From Haloarcula marismortui ATCC 43049 (GTDB lineage Archaea; Halobacteriota; Halobacteria; Halobacteriales; Haloarculaceae), in assembly GCF_000011085.1 (NCBI RefSeq), contig NC_006396.1, forward strand, positions 1,116,001 to 1,180,000: DNA of 64,000 nucleotides, read 5' to 3'. This document shows positions 3,962 through 14,629 of the stretch, one piece after another; the first letter of the stretch is position 1, and every line of letters starts with the position of its first letter. The notes below the pieces were generated by a model. The model was given only the letters and a program-made list of their open reading frames with translations, was not told the origin of the DNA and did not search any database. The translations under genes and the position numbers were made by a program.

Positions 3962-4294
3962 ATGTTCGAAGAGGGTGGCCAGCGGGCTGATTCTGACACT
4001 GGATGGGCACATGTCGCGAATCACGACAAGGCGGCAACAGTTATTGACACGATACTCCGCCTGGACGTGGACAAGACGTACACGAAAACGGCCCTGAGTG
4101 AGGAAGCTGGCGTGCCGCTGAAGACGCTATACCTTGACGGGACGCTCGAAGAGCTAGTGACGGTCGGGCTGCTGGAAAAGCACGAAGCGGAGGGCGAAGA
4201 GACGTTGTTCTCGGTCGATGACGGGAGCGCAGCGTTCGAGGCAGCGAAGGCCTTCGATACTGCGGCAGCGACATCCAGCGACGTGGACAGTTGA
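3962..4294 (+). CDS. Small winged-helix protein, function unknown
   Basis: This 110-residue protein starts with MFEEGGQ. The upstream in-frame codons are promoter sequence, because a TATA box lies 28 bases before this ATG. The middle looks like a winged helix-turn-helix: a helix around VIDTILRLDVDKTYTK, a likely recognition helix in LSEEAGVPLKTLYLDGTLEEL, then a wing-like LLEKHEAEGEETLF. The tail is rich in Ala, Ser and Asp. Genes of this kind are common in haloarchaea and their targets are mostly unknown. It is divergent from the Lrp-aminotransferase unit and shares that control region. Confidence 0.75.
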   Translation: MFEEGGQRADSDTGWAHVANHDKAATVIDTILRLDVDKTYTKTALSEEAGVPLKTLYLDGTLEELVTVGLLEKHEAEGEETLFSVDDGSAAFEAAKAFDTAAATSSDVDS

Positions 4295-4367
4295 TCGAAA
4301 AACGGCTGTCACAGAAGGCAGCCTAGCGTCCGTGGACTTTTGACGGCGACAGCCGTAGTGGAAGGCG

Positions 4368-4958
4368 ATGGTTTCACTCGATTCGGAGTCCGACGTGCTC
4401 GGACGTGGGGACGAAGCACCGACGTTCGAACTGCCGGGGGCCGACGGGGCGACGTACTCACTGTCGGATTTCGCGGACAAGGACGCACTACTAATTGTAT
4501 TTACGTGCAACCACTGTCCATACGCGAAAGCGAAGATAGACGAGCTAAATCGCCTCGCGACAGAATACGACGACCTCGCTGTCGTCGGGATTAATGCCAA
4601 CGACCCCGAGGAGTACCCCGACGACTCGTTCGAGCGGATGCAGGAACTCGTCGAGCGCGGAGAGATACAGTACGACGCGTATCTATTCGACGAGTCACAA
4701 AATGTCGCAGCCGCGTACGGTGCCCGCTGTACCCCCGACCCGTTCTTGTTCCGGAACGACAATGGGGCGTTCAAACTGGCGTACCACGGCCGCCTTGACG
4801 ACGCGCCGAACCCGGACGACGAACCGAGCGAGCGGGAGATGGCTACACACGTCGAAACGTTGCTGGATGGCGACCAGATTACGGCGGTCGAGAAACCATC
4901 CAGAGGGTGCTCGATAAAGTGGAAGCCCGGTAACGAACCCGCGTACTGGGACGTTTGA
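4368..4958 (+). CDS. Thioredoxin-fold (AhpC/TSA-like) redoxin
   Basis: This 196-residue cytoplasmic protein of the peroxiredoxin/thioredoxin superfamily has the typical opening (GDEAPTFELPGADG). The redox-active CxxC is TCNHCPYAK near residue 45. The cis-proline region is CTPDPFLF. It differs from classical thioredoxin in having His and Asn between the cysteines and an extra Cys near the C-terminus (SRGCSIKWKPGN). The likely role is thiol-dependent peroxide or disulfide reduction. The partner reductase is not encoded nearby and the natural substrate is unknown. Confidence 0.88.
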   Translation: MVSLDSESDVLGRGDEAPTFELPGADGATYSLSDFADKDALLIVFTCNHCPYAKAKIDELNRLATEYDDLAVVGINANDPEEYPDDSFERMQELVERGEIQYDAYLFDESQNVAAAYGARCTPDPFLFRNDNGAFKLAYHGRLDDAPNPDDEPSEREMATHVETLLDGDQITAVEKPSRGCSIKWKPGNEPAYWDV

Positions 4959-5082
4959 TCGGGATGGCCCGGCGTGGGCAAGACAACCGAGACAAATGCG
5001 TTGCCCGTGCTGAGATGGTGACCCAGTAGACGCACTAGTTATAACTTCAATCGTATCTACGGGAACCTTAGGTAGTGGTTAG

Positions 5083-5205
5083 TTGTCAGTATACATACAG
5101 TATAAGAAACTCAGCACCGAGGTGAAGACGGTCGTCAACGAGATGCTCGACGACCAGTCAACTGAAGCCAGTTCTGGAAACCCGGGCGTCGATACCTGCT
5201 GTTAG
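5083..5205 (+). CDS. Possible 40-codon small protein or gene remnant (TTG start)
   Basis: After the redoxin gene there is a roughly 240-base stretch with no clear gene. Its only credible coding signal is this frame, running from TTG at 5083 to TAG at 5205. It reads YKKLSTEVKTVVNEMLDDQS and then a short Ser/Glu stretch ending in DTCC. The composition is amphipathic and haloarchaeal, but no family is recognised and there is no ATG. It could be a 40-residue protein or the 3' end of a decayed gene. Its stop overlaps the stop of the convergent small gene. Confidence 0.3.
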   Translation: MSVYIQYKKLSTEVKTVVNEMLDDQSTEASSGNPGVDTCC

Positions 5206-5351
5206 ATTTCGTCCAGAGATTCGAACCCGCTCCAGCACTCGCAGTCGAGGTCGTCGATGGACGTGACTTCGTCCGGAAGTGAACTTATCGGCATCCCATC
5301 ATCAAACTCATCACACTCCTCGATATGAATAGAAAAGTCGCTACTCGACAT
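5202..5351 (-). CDS. Small acidic protein with Cys pair, unknown function
   Basis: This is a 49-residue protein starting MSSSDFSIHIEECDEF. It is strongly acidic and carries single cysteines near residues 13, 39 and 41 (DCECW). The earlier in-frame Met codons give a hydrophobic, non-acidic extension that looks like promoter and non-coding sequence, so I prefer the ATG at 5351. Many haloarchaeal genomes encode such acidic mini-proteins, some of which bind zinc. There are too few ligands here to claim that. No function is assigned. Confidence 0.55.
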   Translation of the reverse strand: MSSSDFSIHIEECDEFDDGMPISSLPDEVTSIDDLDCECWSGFESLDEI

Positions 5352-5557
5352 GACTGGCATAGACACTGATACGGCATCGTACCGCAAAAATCCTCGGACT
5401 TGAGACGGTATAGAATAGGCACTAGAGGCTAGTTGTATAGAGAGAGCCGAGACGAGCACTGTCTCGTATTCGAGTGGCGCTCATCAAAAGTTACCGTATG
5501 TCAAGGGAACGCTTATTTGTTGATGGCTTTATGGTTCCAGATACGATACAGTACGCA

Positions 5558-6595
5558 ATGAACTCCGGGAGTGGGACAGTTGACCAGCCTCTGAAAGAGG
5601 CTGCGTCCGTATTGGTGTTGGCACGCAATGCAAGCGACGCCGAACGAGAGGGGTGTGCCGGGTTCCTGGCTGAGCAGGAGGTCAGTAAGTCGAAGGCGAT
5701 CTGTGTCACAGTGTCCGAATCCCCCGATTCGCGCCTCTCGCTGTGGCAGCAGCACCTCGACGACGAGATGCCCGAAGAGGCGATCATCGTCGACGCCGGC
5801 AGCGAGTTACCGGCTACCTCACAGGCAGCAGCGTCTGGTGCGTTTCCTTCATTGACGCTTGATACCCTTCCCGCAACAGTGGCGCCGATAGACATCAGCG
5901 CGACCGTCTCTCGCCATCTCGGTCGGTTGGAGCAGGAAGATACACCGCTGCTTCTGTGCCTGCATTCACTAACTGGGCTGCTCGAGTGCTGGGAGCGTGA
6001 CCGCGTCATCGCGCTGGTGACTGCGTTGAACCGACAATGTGCCGAGATGGACGTCTCGAGCCATCACCACATGGACCCCGAGGCCCATACGGAGGAGACA
6101 GTCGAGATGTTTCGGCCACTGTATGATGTCGTGTACGAGTATCTCCCGGACCACGGCTGGACCGTCACGGCGTCGCAAGACGCAGAAGAGACGCCGACGT
6201 TTCGGGACACTGTCACCCCACCTGGCGGCGTGAAGAAGGGCGACCCGGAGGAGCCCGAAACGATTCCGATACCGTACTCATTTGACCAGGTACTGGAACT
6301 GATCTCCGCTCCGCGGCGACGCAGTCTCCTGTATCACCTGAAAGACCGGTCTGAAACCGAGGTCCCACTGGACGACCTCGTCGACCGCGTCTACGAACGC
6401 GAAAAGGCTATTCCAGCCAGAACGACGCCGAAGTCCCGCGACGAGGTTGGCGTGTCGCTGGCACACAATCACCTTCCGCGGCTGGACGATCTGGGGATTC
6501 TCTCGTACGAGACAGCTGATAATACTGTTGAGTACTACGCCAATCCCGCGCTGGAGTCCGTGATTCAGTACGTCGAACGCCTCGAACTCGGCTAG
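5558..6595 (+). CDS. DUF7504-like protein with C-terminal winged-helix (DUF7344-like) domain
   Basis: The protein is 345 residues from the ATG at 5558. A TATA-like ctttatgg lies about 27 bases upstream, favouring this start over in-frame GTG 5474 and ATG 5498. Residues 1-200 resemble the haloarchaeal RecA/KaiC-like family without a functional P-loop (SVLVLARNASDAE, then LLLCLHSLTGLLE). After a charged linker, the C-terminal 100 residues form a winged helix (ISAPRRRSLLYHLKDRS, then LPRLDDLGILSYE). Fusions of this kind are usually regarded as sensory or transcriptional regulators. The target is unknown. Confidence 0.78.
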   Translation: MNSGSGTVDQPLKEAASVLVLARNASDAEREGCAGFLAEQEVSKSKAICVTVSESPDSRLSLWQQHLDDEMPEEAIIVDAGSELPATSQAAASGAFPSLTLDTLPATVAPIDISATVSRHLGRLEQEDTPLLLCLHSLTGLLECWERDRVIALVTALNRQCAEMDVSSHHHMDPEAHTEETVEMFRPLYDVVYEYLPDHGWTVTASQDAEETPTFRDTVTPPGGVKKGDPEEPETIPIPYSFDQVLELISAPRRRSLLYHLKDRSETEVPLDDLVDRVYEREKAIPARTTPKSRDEVGVSLAHNHLPRLDDLGILSYETADNTVEYYANPALESVIQYVERLELG

Positions 6596-6645
6596 TTCCG
6601 GTCCGGACCCACTCGTTTATGTTGCCGCTACCGGCATAGCCTGAC

Positions 6646-7314
6646 ATGGACGAAACCCCGCTCCCGGAAGTGACAGAGCAGTTCGCTCGCACACTGGCGC
6701 CAGCCAGCGATGCAATTATCGATGAGATGGACGCCAAAGCCGACCGAGAGGGATTCCCGACGGTCGGTCCCGCAGTCGGCGGGTGGCTCCGCCTCGTCGC
6801 CCGGATGGTCGACGCCGACCGTGTCTTCGAGTTCGGCTCCGGCTTCGGCTACTCGGCGTACTGGATGGCACCCGCTGTGTCCGACGATGGACAGATTGTC
6901 CTAACGGAGATCGACGCCGACGAACTCGAGGATGCCCGCGAGTTCCTCGACCGCGGCGGGTTCGCCGACCTAGCCGCCTTCGAGCACGGTGACGCAATCG
7001 AAATCGTCGAGAACTACGACGGCCCGTTCGACGTCGTGCTTATTGATAACGAGAAACACCGCTATGCAGAGGCCTTCGAGGCTGTCCAGGCAAAGGTGCC
7101 GGTCGGTGGGGCCGTGGTCGCTGACAACATGATCGAGGCCGGGCCGCTGGAATTTGCAGATGTACGGGCGTTGCTGGCTGGCGAGGACATCAACGCCAAC
7201 GAAACGAGTCGCGGTATCGCCGCGTATCTCAAACGCGTCGGCAGCGACCCGGCGTTCGAGACCGGGCTGCTACCGCTCGGTGAGGGCGTCGCTGTGAGCG
7301 TCCGGGTGGAGTGA
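6646..7314 (+). CDS. SAM-dependent O-methyltransferase
   Basis: This 222-residue class I methyltransferase of the O-methyltransferase family 3 (catechol/caffeoyl-CoA OMT-like) transfers a methyl group from SAM. Motif I is VFEFGSGFGYSAYWMA near residue 65. The acidic SAM-binding residue follows in VLTEIDADEL, and the metal/substrate region is FDVVLIDNEKHRY with a later VVADNMI. Length is typical. The gene stands alone between a regulator and cheC, with no pathway partners, so the substrate is unknown. Confidence 0.9.
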   Translation: MDETPLPEVTEQFARTLAPASDAIIDEMDAKADREGFPTVGPAVGGWLRLVARMVDADRVFEFGSGFGYSAYWMAPAVSDDGQIVLTEIDADELEDAREFLDRGGFADLAAFEHGDAIEIVENYDGPFDVVLIDNEKHRYAEAFEAVQAKVPVGGAVVADNMIEAGPLEFADVRALLAGEDINANETSRGIAAYLKRVGSDPAFETGLLPLGEGVAVSVRVE

Positions 7315-7414
7315 GCAAGCGGCAGCAACACGCTCCGATTCTCGCCGACGAAAATGCGGGTGCATAGCTTATGTATGAGGGCACACAACTCAGCGGCAAC
7401 GCTGGTCCTAACGA

Positions 7415-10705: not shown

Positions 10706-11860
10706 ATGGACCTGCTATCCGAGAAACTCGTTCCGGAGCACGCACACGAGGTCAAGGAGGAGGCTCGGGAGTTCGCCGCGGAGCACATCGAGCCAGTCGC
10801 GGGTGAGTACTACGCGTCCGGGGAGTACCCCTGGGACGTGCTTGAAGCGGCGACGGAGGCCGGGCTCGTCGCACAGGATATCGGCGAAGAGTGGGGCGGG
10901 AGCGGCTACGACCTCCAGCAGATGCTTGCGATGGCAGAGGAACTGTACAAAGCCGACGCAGGAATCGCGCTGACGATCCAGCTCGCCAGCTTCGGGGCAG
11001 AAATCGTCGAGGACCACGGCGCGGACTGGCAGAAAGAGGAGTTCCTCAAGCCCGTCGCTGCCGGCGACCAGCTTACCGGTCTCGCCGTCTCTGAACCGGA
11101 AACGGGGAGCGACCTTGCTGGGATGACGACGGCCGCTGAGAAAGATGGTGACGAGTGGGTAATTAACGGCGAAAAATACTGGATCGGCAACGGTGTCGAG
11201 GCGGACTGGGTGACGCTGTACGCCAAGACCGGTGACGACCCGAACGACCGCTACGGGAACTACTCGATGTTTATCGTCCCGACAGACGCCGACGGCTACC
11301 ACGCCGAGCACATCCCCGAGAAGATGGGCTTCCGGGCGTCCAAGCAGGCCCACATCGTGCTTGACGACTGCCGGATTCCGGAGGAGAATCTGGTCGGCGT
11401 CGAAGGGGCCGGCTTCTATATGCTCGCCGAGTTCTTCAATCACGGCCGCGTCGTCGTCGGCGGACACGGTCTCGGGCTGGCCGCCGCAGCCATCGAGGAA
11501 GCCTGGGAGTTCGTCCATGACCGCGAAGCCTTCGGCAAGACCGTCGACGAGTTCCAGGCGGTCCAGCACAAACTGGCCGATATGCAACTCAGCCTCCAGT
11601 CCGCCCGGACCCTCACCTGGCACGCGGCCGAACGCGTCGCCAATCAGGAGAACTCCGGCTACTGGGCCGCACTAGCAAAGACCAACGCGACCGAAGCCGC
11701 AATGGACTGTGCGGAGAAGGGGATGCAACTCCACGGTGGGCGGTCCGTGCTGACGGAGAACCGCATTTCCCGCGTGTATCGCGATGTTCGGATTCCGGTT
11801 ATCTACGAGGGAGCCAACGACATCCAGCGGAACCTCATCTACAAGCAGGCTCCGATGTAA
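10706..11860 (+). CDS. Acyl-CoA dehydrogenase
   Basis: This FAD-dependent dehydrogenase of 384 residues introduces the alpha-beta double bond into an acyl-CoA and passes electrons to electron-transfer flavoprotein. Family marks are the FAD/substrate motifs LTGLAVSEPETGSDLAGM and EKYWIGNG, the C-terminal signature QLHGGRSVLTENRISRVYRD, and a catalytic-Glu segment in PVIYEGANDIQRN. I start at MDLLSEKLVPEH (ATG 10706), which matches how haloarchaeal relatives begin; an in-frame ATG at 10679 is possible. The acyl-CoA ligase at 8120 is a plausible upstream enzyme. Confidence 0.93.
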   Translation: MDLLSEKLVPEHAHEVKEEAREFAAEHIEPVAGEYYASGEYPWDVLEAATEAGLVAQDIGEEWGGSGYDLQQMLAMAEELYKADAGIALTIQLASFGAEIVEDHGADWQKEEFLKPVAAGDQLTGLAVSEPETGSDLAGMTTAAEKDGDEWVINGEKYWIGNGVEADWVTLYAKTGDDPNDRYGNYSMFIVPTDADGYHAEHIPEKMGFRASKQAHIVLDDCRIPEENLVGVEGAGFYMLAEFFNHGRVVVGGHGLGLAAAAIEEAWEFVHDREAFGKTVDEFQAVQHKLADMQLSLQSARTLTWHAAERVANQENSGYWAALAKTNATEAAMDCAEKGMQLHGGRSVLTENRISRVYRDVRIPVIYEGANDIQRNLIYKQAPM

Positions 11861-11920
11861 CGGAGAGAGTAGCGGTCACTGTCGATTGATTGCGTCGCAA
11901 ACGGCGTGTTTTTCGCGGGA

Positions 11921-12663
11921 ACACCACCCTTCGAGTGTTCTTTGGAGGAGCGTGGCTGGCCAGCTATCACTCCAGCGGCTGTTCACGACTGGACAGCCTG
12001 TACAGCCCGGATATACCAACCAGACAGGGATTACGCTACTGTACGAAGTCCATGCGAGTGATACTGAGTCGGTACACCACCCTACAAGTGTTCTGACATC
12101 ACCAGACAGTTGACCCGACACCACCATACAAGTGTTCTATCACCACCCTGCGAGTGTTTCCAGTTCGACTACAGCCAGACCAGAATGGTGAACACGTGTT
12201 CACACACCACCCTGCAAGTGTTCGCACGGAAGGTGTGCAAGCGTCTGAATCTACGAAAACACCACGCTGCAAGTGTTTTTGTGGCGTTGTTCCGAGTTCC
12301 GATTCGCCCTTGCACACCACCGTGCAAGTGTTTCACGTACTGCTTGAGGTGTGTGAGAGTATGCTGAGACACCACCCTGCAAGTGTTCCAAAAGGCCGTT
12401 TTGGGCGGTTTTCCCGTCGGATCGGGTTCACACCACCCTGCAAGTGTTTTCGAAACGGAATACGTAGGGTCGTGGTGGAACCGGACGGACACACCGGTCT
12501 GCAAGTGTTCTACACACTGCAGCGGGGAACAGATACCAGATAACCGCCTGTTTGCACCCCCTTTCACTGTCTACTGTGGGGACACACACCACCCTGCAAC
12601 TGTTCTGGACGCCACAATAGTTAGACCGCCGCTGAACACACACACACCACCGTGCAAGTGTTC
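11921..12663 (+). repeat. Array of 12 direct ORB-like repeats downstream of cdc6
   Basis: Twelve same-orientation copies of a 20-mer with consensus ACACCACCCTGCAAGTGTTC begin at 11921, 12074, 12118, 12140, 12204, 12259, 12314, 12369, 12430, 12491, 12586 and 12644. Copies 5 and 8 match the consensus exactly; the others differ by one to three bases. Starts in the middle of the array are 55, 55, 55, 61 and 61 bases apart. There is no gene in this 830-base stretch. The same 20-mer flanks the AT-rich region beside cdc6, so these are almost certainly binding sites for that initiator. In Haloarcula hispanica an ORB-rich region downstream of cdc6E is reported to restrain oriC2 by titrating the protein. 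Confidence 0.9.
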
Positions 12664-12688
12664 TGCCGTGTGAGCCGACGGGGGGTGG

Positions 12689-14017
12689 CTACGTGAACTG
12701 CCAGAGGTTCTGTTGCTCGTCGTCAGTAGTGTCCGGTGCCTCGAACTCAGTCGCCTCGTCTTCCAGATAATGTTCGAGAATCCCGTTGACGTTACTCGGC
12801 ACAGCATCGCTGTAGGAGGACTGGAGTGCAGCGTTGATGATGTCGGTCGGGTCATCAGTGACTTCATAAATATACTTGCGTCCGCCCTTGCGGCCAAGGT
12901 TGCGTTCCGCAGAACGGACCAGTCCCTGCATTGAGAGCTGGTCAAGGAACTCGTATATCTTCCGCTCGGATTTCACGCGGCGACCGCTCGACTCCGCGAT
13001 AGAGGAATAGAGATTGTAGATCCGTTTTGTCGACGCCTCGTGTTTCGGCTCGATGAGTGCAAGCGTCGTGGCGAGATAGGTCAATGCTTGTTGTGAACTC
13101 AGATCGTGCTCGAAGTAATCCAGCAGTTCATCGGTTTCGATAGTGTCCGTCGCCCGCCGTGTATGTGCCTCCGTTACACCCTCTGCACCCTCCATCCGCG
13201 CGTACTCCCCGGCCTTTTCGAGGATTCGGAGTCCCTGCCGAACGTCACCGCGTTCCTGTGCAGAGAAGGCTGCTGCCAGCGGGACGACATCTTCGCCGAG
13301 CACGTCCTCCCGGAACGCGATGTCGGCGTAGTAGCCAAGAATATCTCGAAGTTCAGTCGCGTCATATGGGCCGAACTTGATCTCTCGCTCCCCCAGCGTC
13401 GATTTCACCTTGGGTTCCAGTACGTCGACGAACTTGAGGTCGTTTGAGATACCGATAAGTCCAACCTTCGCATCGGTGATCGGCGTGTTCTCGTTCGCTT
13501 CGGCCCGCGGCAGTTCGTAGAGAAAGTCGTTCCGTGCATCCGCAGGAATGTTGTCAATCTCGTCCAGAATAATAAGCACGTTCCCGCCCACAGCCTCTAT
13601 CTCTTCGTAGAGGAACTCGAAGACGCTGTCAGTGCTGTAGCCGCTCTCCGGGAGCTGGTTCTCAGGATCCCGGAACTCGTTGACGAGCGTATTTACCAGT
13701 GCATACGCCGACCGGTAGTTCCGGCAGTTAATCGGACCGACAACGGTGAGCGGGATATCCTCAGCCTCGGCTTTCTCTTCGAGTTTATCTCGTACCCACT
13801 TTGTAACAGCAGTTTTGCCGACTCCTGTTGGACCATAGACGAAGACGTTGTTGGGGTCGTGGCCGACAATGACATCCTGAAGTGCGTTGATGTAGAATTC
13901 GATTTCCTCGTCGCGGTGAAAGATCGTATCCGGCGTGAACGTGTCTTTTTTCAGCGGTTGTTTTCGTTCGAAGATCGAATCAGTCCCGTCGAACGGGTTC
14001 TCGTTCACGTCGACCAT
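12689..14017 (-). CDS. cdc6E: Orc1/Cdc6 replication initiator
   Basis: This 442-residue AAA+ protein binds origin recognition boxes and loads the MCM helicase. Walker A is YGPTGVGKTAV (residues 61-71). Walker B is VLIILDEIDN, sensor 1 lies near VGLIGISNDLKF, and a C-terminal winged-helix DNA-binding domain follows (ERKIYEFLDQLSMQGLV). I choose ATG 14017 (MVDVNENPFDG). A TATA box lies 28 bases upstream, and the longer frame would read through a binding box. It sits between the 12-box array and the AT-rich origin, the arrangement described for cdc6E of Haloarcula hispanica. The gene name rests on that resemblance, not on a sequence comparison. Confidence 0.93.
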   Translation of the reverse strand: MVDVNENPFDGTDSIFERKQPLKKDTFTPDTIFHRDEEIEFYINALQDVIVGHDPNNVFVYGPTGVGKTAVTKWVRDKLEEKAEAEDIPLTVVGPINCRNYRSAYALVNTLVNEFRDPENQLPESGYSTDSVFEFLYEEIEAVGGNVLIILDEIDNIPADARNDFLYELPRAEANENTPITDAKVGLIGISNDLKFVDVLEPKVKSTLGEREIKFGPYDATELRDILGYYADIAFREDVLGEDVVPLAAAFSAQERGDVRQGLRILEKAGEYARMEGAEGVTEAHTRRATDTIETDELLDYFEHDLSSQQALTYLATTLALIEPKHEASTKRIYNLYSSIAESSGRRVKSERKIYEFLDQLSMQGLVRSAERNLGRKGGRKYIYEVTDDPTDIINAALQSSYSDAVPSNVNGILEHYLEDEATEFEAPDTTDDEQQNLWQFT

Positions 14018-14040
14018 CGTATTCCACCTTTTGAGTGGCT

Positions 14041-14050
14041 CTATATAAAA
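14041..14050 (-). promoter_or_regulatory. TATA box of cdc6, adjoining an ORB
   Basis: On the minus strand this reads ttttatatag, centred 28 bases before the cdc6 ATG at 14017, so the transcript should be leaderless. A recognition box (14055-14074) abuts the upstream side, where TFB would contact DNA. Binding of Cdc6 there could repress its own gene. Confidence 0.65.
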
Positions 14051-14054
14051 CCAG

Positions 14055-14074
14055 TGACCACCGTTCAAGTGTTT
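14055..14074 (+). repeat. Origin recognition box, degenerate copy at the cdc6 promoter
   Basis: This copy reads TGACCACCGTTCAAGTGTTT, with four mismatches to the array consensus. A partial second unit (caagtgtttt) follows at 14075. Confidence 0.75.
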
Positions 14075-14100
14075 CAAGTGTTTTCACGCCGAACAGTCAC

Positions 14101-14120
14101 ACACCACCCTGCAAGTGTTT
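14101..14120 (+). repeat. Origin recognition box, left side of the unwinding region
   Basis: This 20-mer matches the array consensus apart from the final T, and it has the same orientation as the downstream array. Confidence 0.85.
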
Positions 14121-14200
14121 CTCCGCTCCCACTCGAAAACAGTTACGAGCGGCCTGCTACACCGATACCTGACTTAACACACTTGATTCCTGCGATTCTT

Positions 14201-14300
14201 CATTCTCTAGTCAATGACTAGATATGGAACTAGATATTATTTTTATATCTTATGGTATATGCAATATAGTCTGGTTACTGTTGAATAGCACAGTCTATAG
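14201..14300. other. AT-rich duplex unwinding element
   Basis: This stretch is far richer in A and T than anything else nearby (for example gatattatttttatatctt at 14235-14254). It contains a 7-bp inverted repeat with one central base (CTAGTCA-A-TGACTAG, 14207-14221) and a repeated ctagatat. It lies between oppositely oriented recognition boxes, the place where archaeal origins melt. Confidence 0.75.
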
Positions 14301-14453
14301 AATCTACTTCGGAAGGGGTCTGTAACGGCTAAATCTATGTATTCAGGTACAGTACCGACCACACAGTCTCGGCGAGACAGAACAATCTCCACTCTATTTA
14401 AATATAGTGACGTGGTTCCGCCACTCCCCGCCCCCACCCCCTGCAAACCCCGA

Positions 14454-14473
14454 GAACACTTGCAGGGTGGTGT
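14454..14473 (-). repeat. Inverted origin recognition box, right side of the unwinding region
   Basis: Read on the minus strand it gives the consensus 20-mer exactly. It is the only copy in this orientation, and it closes the origin opposite the box at 14101. Confidence 0.88.
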
Positions 14474-14629
14474 GTGTGGGTCCCGCTCTGTCACGAATAT
14501 TTTGGCAGAAATCTCACTCAATGTCCACACGGCATGAAACCCCATTCCACAGCGAAATGCGGCTGGTGCACCGAGCCAGCCCACTGCGCACGGCATCGTC
14601 TTTACTTTGTGACAGGCCGTAGACACTGT

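Follow-up and report, generated by a model that had tools for sequence, protein, structure and literature searches.

What is the function of a row of origin recognition boxes (ORBs) that lies behind an initiator gene, on the side opposite the origin? Haloarcula marismortui ATCC 43049, with its nine replicons (AY596290-98), has an origin, oriC2-cdc6h, in common with Haloarcula hispanica; according to the main text of PMC3528665, ORBs occur in both intergenic regions flanking cdc6h. The main-text passages on the locus do not give how many boxes lie downstream, how they are oriented or how well they are conserved. The locus treated there is identical to the one described here, which lies in a window of 64,000 nucleotides, the whole stretch of DNA that was analysed (contig NC_006396.1, positions 1,116,001 to 1,180,000). 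Its features are listed in Table 1.

The array is placed between two convergent genes. The preliminary description had reported twelve copies in one orientation in a stretch free of genes; a repeat search and a pattern search agree on the same twelve, all on the + strand, and the spacings given then (55, 55, 55, 61 and 61 bp, and 22 bp between copies 3 and 4) are correct. The start-to-start distances from box 1 to box 12 are 153, 44, 22, 64, 55, 55, 55, 61, 61, 95 and 58 bp. The boxes are 20-mers with the consensus ACACCACCCTGCAAGTGTTC/T and are not identical: the 18-base core is exact in three copies and the remaining copies are 1–3 positions off. With up to three mismatches allowed, the window contains 15 matches, versus 0.02 expected from shuffled sequences; the three outside the array, absent from the preliminary description, are situated upstream of cdc6h and are oriC2's own boxes. 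Across the whole genome (4,274,642 bp, nine contigs), all non-coding matches with at most two mismatches belong to the oriC2 locus. The four other matches at this threshold, one on each of four plasmids, were rejected as extra origin boxes because they lie within reading frames of a plasmid segment that is present in several paralogous copies, 85–91% identical to each other.

The array does not have the structure of an origin. No inverted box pair flanks an A+T-rich stretch, and the A+T content is 45%, compared with 56% in the origin interior. Local GC skew, which has only a weak sign change near 12–14 kb, was not used as support for the origin. A coding gene inside the array was rejected, since only the boxes are conserved and many of the spacer indels have lengths not divisible by three; an RNA gene was rejected as well, the array having no family match in Rfam and conservation only in the boxes. 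The spacer between boxes 4 and 5 (12160–12203) is the only long spacer of constant length, 44 bp in 13/13 Haloarcula arrays, and is about 80% identical among them; its palindrome occurs in H. marismortui and some other Haloarcula species.

Table 1. Features of the oriC2 locus in the window (positions within the 64,000 nucleotides).
Feature	Position	Strand	Remarks
Array + cdc6h + oriC2 cassette	11861..14629		flanked by the genes for acyl-CoA dehydrogenase (end at 11860) and a metallo-beta-lactamase-fold protein (start at about 14630)
Array of 12 origin recognition boxes	11921..12663	+ (antisense to cdc6h)	corresponds to H. hispanica oriC2D (PMC3936714)
Box 1 (ACACCACCCTTCGAGTGTTC), variant with G in CGAGTG	11921..11940	+	one deviant base shared by 13/13 Haloarcula and a second by 10/13
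Box 2	12074..12093	+	
Box 3	12118..12137	+	
Box 4, 22 bp from box 3	12140..12159	+	
16-bp palindrome GTGAACACGTGTTCAC, abuts box 5	12188..12203		inside 44-bp spacer; partly conserved
Box 5	12204..12223	+	
Box 6	12259..12278	+	
Box 7	12314..12333	+	
Box 8	12369..12388	+	
Box 9	12430..12449	+	
Box 10, low-scoring variant ACACCGGTCTGCAAGTGTTC (GGTCTG)	12491..12510	+	deviations kept in 12–13/13 Haloarcula
Box 11, variant with AACTGTTC (AACTGTT)	12586..12605	+	kept in 13/13 Haloarcula
Box 12, 26 bp past cdc6h stop codon	12644..12663	+	
cdc6h, Orc1/Cdc6 initiator, 442 aa	12689..14017	-	ortholog of H. hispanica cdc6E
cdc6h TATA element (TTTATATA)	14042..14049	-	starts 32 bp before ATG
Promoter-proximal box, then second half-box (CAAGTGTTTCAAGTGTTTT)	14055..14074	+	abuts TATA/BRE position; candidate autoregulatory operator
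oriC2 inner origin box	14101..14120	+	
A+T-richer oriC2 interior, presumed duplex-unwinding region, between inverted boxes	14121..14453		56% A+T
oriC2 outer origin box, inverted relative to the others	14454..14473	-	

Initiator Cdc6h comprises an AAA+ domain with intact Walker A and B motifs, a Cdc6 lid and a C-terminal winged helix (PF22703, PF09079, PF13401); the nearest solved structures include the crenarchaeal Orc1/Cdc6 proteins 2qby and 2v1u. The protein is 99% identical to its ortholog in genome G007. Across 14 Haloarcula genomes its identity is 99–100% (97% in H. salina), and that of the neighbouring acyl-CoA dehydrogenase is lower, 94–99% (89% in H. salina). The promoter-proximal box and the following half-box together span 14055–14085. 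A half-box and box directly upstream of a TTTAT(A) element were found by pattern at 28 of 30 Cdc6E-type loci, and in most cases the element lies 30–33 bp before the cdc6 ATG. Since an initiator bound beside the TATA element should hinder TFB/TBP, this geometry suggests that cdc6h is repressed by its own product through the box and half-box. No discussion of a promoter operator is found in the passages of the cited papers that deal with the locus.

At the 30 Cdc6E-type loci (67–100% identity), each oriented by its cdc6 gene, boxes were sought with a matrix built from those of the window; this matrix favours window-like boxes, but no orientation. A downstream array is present at 30/30 loci, with 2–12 boxes each, and 228/228 downstream boxes are antisense to cdc6; as the loci are related, these are not 228 independent observations. 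The upstream pattern, too, is present at all loci: a box near -100, a weaker box near -57 and, except at one locus ended by a contig edge, a box of inverted orientation between about -376 and -554. Most Haloarcula arrays have 12, 11 or 10 boxes, and that of H. salina has 8; Halorubrum, Halobellus, Haloparvum, Natrinema, Natribaculum, Saliphagus and others have 2–10. The scan gives 11 boxes in G007 (L058), equal to the published H. hispanica count, and three in G199, equal to the published count for Halorubrum lacusprofundi. We take G007 to be H. hispanica, and the 525,943-bp contig of G199 is presumably chromosome II of Halorubrum lacusprofundi.

Among 391 genomes of the class, boxes are found in 26/26 of those having Cdc6E and in 8/365 of those lacking it (at most one mismatch), five with a single match and three with three or more. 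In G305 (L111:4000-5869), a 106-residue C-terminal fragment of cdc6E lies beside three downstream boxes, and no upstream boxes were found; judging by these remains, the locus is a decayed oriC2 relic. In G404 and G318, the boxes are accompanied, at a distance of no more than about 1 kb, by another Cdc6 that shares about 30% identity with Cdc6h. Loci of this kind occur in two genomes of another genus, where about 0.9 kb separates the Cdc6E-type boxes from the divergent Cdc6: five boxes in a single orientation at one (L149:4845-5067 and 5994-7364), and an origin-like box arrangement at the other (L150:2891-3312 and 4220-5599). These boxes may reflect a shared box specificity or may be orphans.

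Within Haloarcula, the pairwise identity of 13 arrays is 95.2% for boxes, compared with 67.4% for spacers; spacers vary in length and boxes hardly do. The boxes are evidently under selection in these alignments and the spacers are not. The columns in which a box deviates from the family consensus are invariant across Haloarcula in 8/17 cases, versus 77/465 spacer columns (Fisher p = 0.004), and the retention of such deviant columns suggests that the variant boxes are graded sites. An array of this kind might also be the functionless remnant of tandem duplication, as the Halobellus array (L095:5445-5794) could lead one to think: its eight boxes form an almost perfect 46–47 bp tandem repeat, visibly an independent and recent expansion. 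However, boxes are far more conserved than spacers in 13 species, and the spacers of H. marismortui are mutually dissimilar, for which reason recent tandem duplication was rejected as the source of its array. Moreover, the H. hispanica array cannot be deleted while oriC2 is present, according to the passages of PMC3936714 on the locus. A neutral remnant is already contradicted by these data and is extremely unlikely.

Counting copies and spacings in other Haloarcula genomes had been proposed as a check on the array; it is present there, with 10–12 boxes in most and 8 in H. salina, and its spacings shift between species by 1–3 bp to several bases or more. Across lineages, the distance between neighbours is 22–168 bp for most box pairs. 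The boxes in the window have no helical phasing (Rayleigh p about 0.3); that in other lineages is weak, with a p of about 0.02 that includes the non-independent 46–47 bp tandem copies of Halobellus. Given spacings that differ between lineages and the lack of helical phase, the earlier suggestion of ordered or cooperative filament binding finds no support. The same measurements bear on a switch of the datA or RIDA type, in which Cdc6h assembled on the array would hydrolyse ATP faster or be removed after initiation, so that the initiator is inactivated. Such a switch would explain the fixed orientation, kept in all lineages, and the close spacing; the 64/22/44 bp block is constant in length in most Haloarcula, and the Walker motifs of Cdc6h are intact. 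An ordered assembly, however, is not what would be expected where spacing and box number (2–12) vary freely and the window is without helical phase, and a switch of this type is quite improbable.

Genetic data on the corresponding region of H. hispanica, oriC2D, are available in PMC3936714. According to the passages of that paper on the locus, oriC2D, which follows cdc6E, has 11 ORBs within 722 bp, lacks origin activity and can be deleted only once oriC2 is also gone. An oriC2 plasmid has fewer copies in its presence, a two-box fragment having an intermediate effect, and an oriC2 plasmid is incompatible with wild-type cells. The negative regulation of oriC2 that the preliminary description cited from H. 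hispanica agrees with these genetics. The authors of PMC3936714 consider in the same passages that the ORB region probably titrates Cdc6E; a binding assay, whether EMSA or footprint, is not found in the paper. The H. marismortui array is already known in kind and place, because PMC3528665 places ORBs on both sides of cdc6h and PMC3936714 shows the restraint of oriC2 in H. hispanica; the additions made here by comparison are computational.

The conservation of the array together with its cognate Cdc6 at 30 loci and the H. hispanica genetics (PMC3936714) support the reading of the array as a cluster of Cdc6h-binding sites that restrains oriC2 by titration, and this is very probably its function, the genetics coming from H. 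hispanica. The titration sink put forward from the window is retained in this form; the ordered binding attached to it is not. The restraint could, nevertheless, come from contact between array and origin, or from turnover of the nucleotide bound to Cdc6, instead of sequestration. The boxes of a pure sink would also not need to share an orientation, a pattern that tandem duplication could nonetheless yield. Contact is what the handcuffing of iteron plasmids would involve: Cdc6h molecules bound to the array and to the origin pair and sterically block oriC2 locally. The array is always within about 2 kb of the initiator gene and the origin, relatives of the module are plasmid-borne, and the incompatibility of the oriC2 plasmid with wild-type cells (passages of PMC3936714 on the locus) could be read in the same way. 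The H. hispanica chromosomal array, however, acted in trans on an oriC2 plasmid and lowered its copy number, which titration explains simply, and the effect of box number is graded; although handcuffing could also act in trans, it is an unlikely basis for the restraint.

According to the titration reading, Cdc6h would bind the boxes directly and the 12 array sites would take up free initiator, the three origin boxes being filled only after enough of it has accumulated. Located within 2.6 kb of the origin, the array would be doubled upon firing, and free initiator would fall at once. The fixed orientation would mean that the array never presents an inverted box pair around an A+T-rich stretch, that is, an origin. 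The variant boxes would contribute graded affinities, the promoter box and half-box beside the TATA element would repress cdc6h, and array size and autorepression would jointly determine the firing rate.

The array, cdc6h and oriC2 occupy a gap of 2.77 kb between the acyl-CoA dehydrogenase and metallo-beta-lactamase-fold genes. Six Haloarcula species that lack chromosomal oriC2 have about 75–120 bp between the same two genes; in a seventh the distance is 1.25 kb, without cdc6. In H. pelagica the chromosomal site is empty, and a 75% identical cdc6E with an array is carried by a 258-kb plasmid. Plasmid-borne relatives are also found in Natrinema and Natribaculum, and a near-identical copy of the Natribaculum plasmid locus (about 96–97% in DNA) is present on a 3.66-Mb contig. 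In the protein tree, Haloarcula chromosomal copies form one group, of which the H. pelagica plasmid copy is not the direct sister; elsewhere, haloarchaeal families are intermixed. The simplest reading is that the whole module was inserted once into the ancestor of these Haloarcula, though it may instead have been lost from the species with an empty site; an insertion of oriC2 into the Haloarcula ancestor is proposed on other grounds in a passage of PMC4441112. Array, gene and origin apparently make up one portable cassette of plasmid derivation, which is new here, and the unit as a whole would behave as a mobile replicon module with a single entry into the chromosome of Haloarcula. A plasmid origin raises the thought of a centromere-like partition site, marked by Cdc6h or another protein for segregation, and tandem sites in the same orientation with plasmid-borne relatives would suit one. 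The cassette, however, comprises array, cdc6h and origin only, with no gene for a partition ATPase; the array sites do not differ in sequence from the adjacent initiator's origin boxes; and where oriC2 has been removed the published deletion is tolerated, as the passages of PMC3936714 on the locus describe. A partition site is accordingly very unlikely. More tentatively, the titration array could belong to a portable copy-control module that evolved on plasmids, had its own promoter operator and was inserted into the chromosome once, with orientation selected since a flipped box would create an origin, and with variant boxes of lower affinity filling in sequence; this fuller version is possible, though doubtful.

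An initiator-binding array at the origin is indicated as a trait of the whole Cdc6E-type replicon family of archaea, on chromosomes and plasmids. With the natural series of 2–12 boxes and the empty site in sister species, it becomes directly testable how titration depends on dose and how a chromosome captures a second origin. Among the closest known systems is H. hispanica oriC2D. It is the orthologous locus, with the same gene order, boxes and position and an initiator protein 99% identical; like it, the H. marismortui array lies directly downstream of the cdc6E ortholog, and its 12 downstream and three upstream boxes fit one matrix. The two arrays can be aligned box by box, apart from small losses and gains; they differ in number (11 boxes in H. 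hispanica versus 12) and slightly in spacing, and function is known from H. hispanica. E. coli datA is an analogous system only: it is likewise a cluster of initiator boxes that lacks origin activity and restrains initiation, but its boxes are bound by DnaA, whereas those of H. marismortui are Orc1/Cdc6 origin boxes. The datA locus is far from oriC and has few boxes and an IHF site, in contrast to the many boxes beside the origin in H. marismortui, for which, to our knowledge, no cofactor is known. The iteron incompatibility arrays of bacterial plasmids are also tandem direct repeats of initiator sites, through which copy number is kept down and incompatibility arises, and the plasmid-borne relatives of the H. 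marismortui module add to the likeness; these arrays employ a RepA-type initiator, whereas the H. marismortui array is irregularly spaced and employs Orc1/Cdc6.
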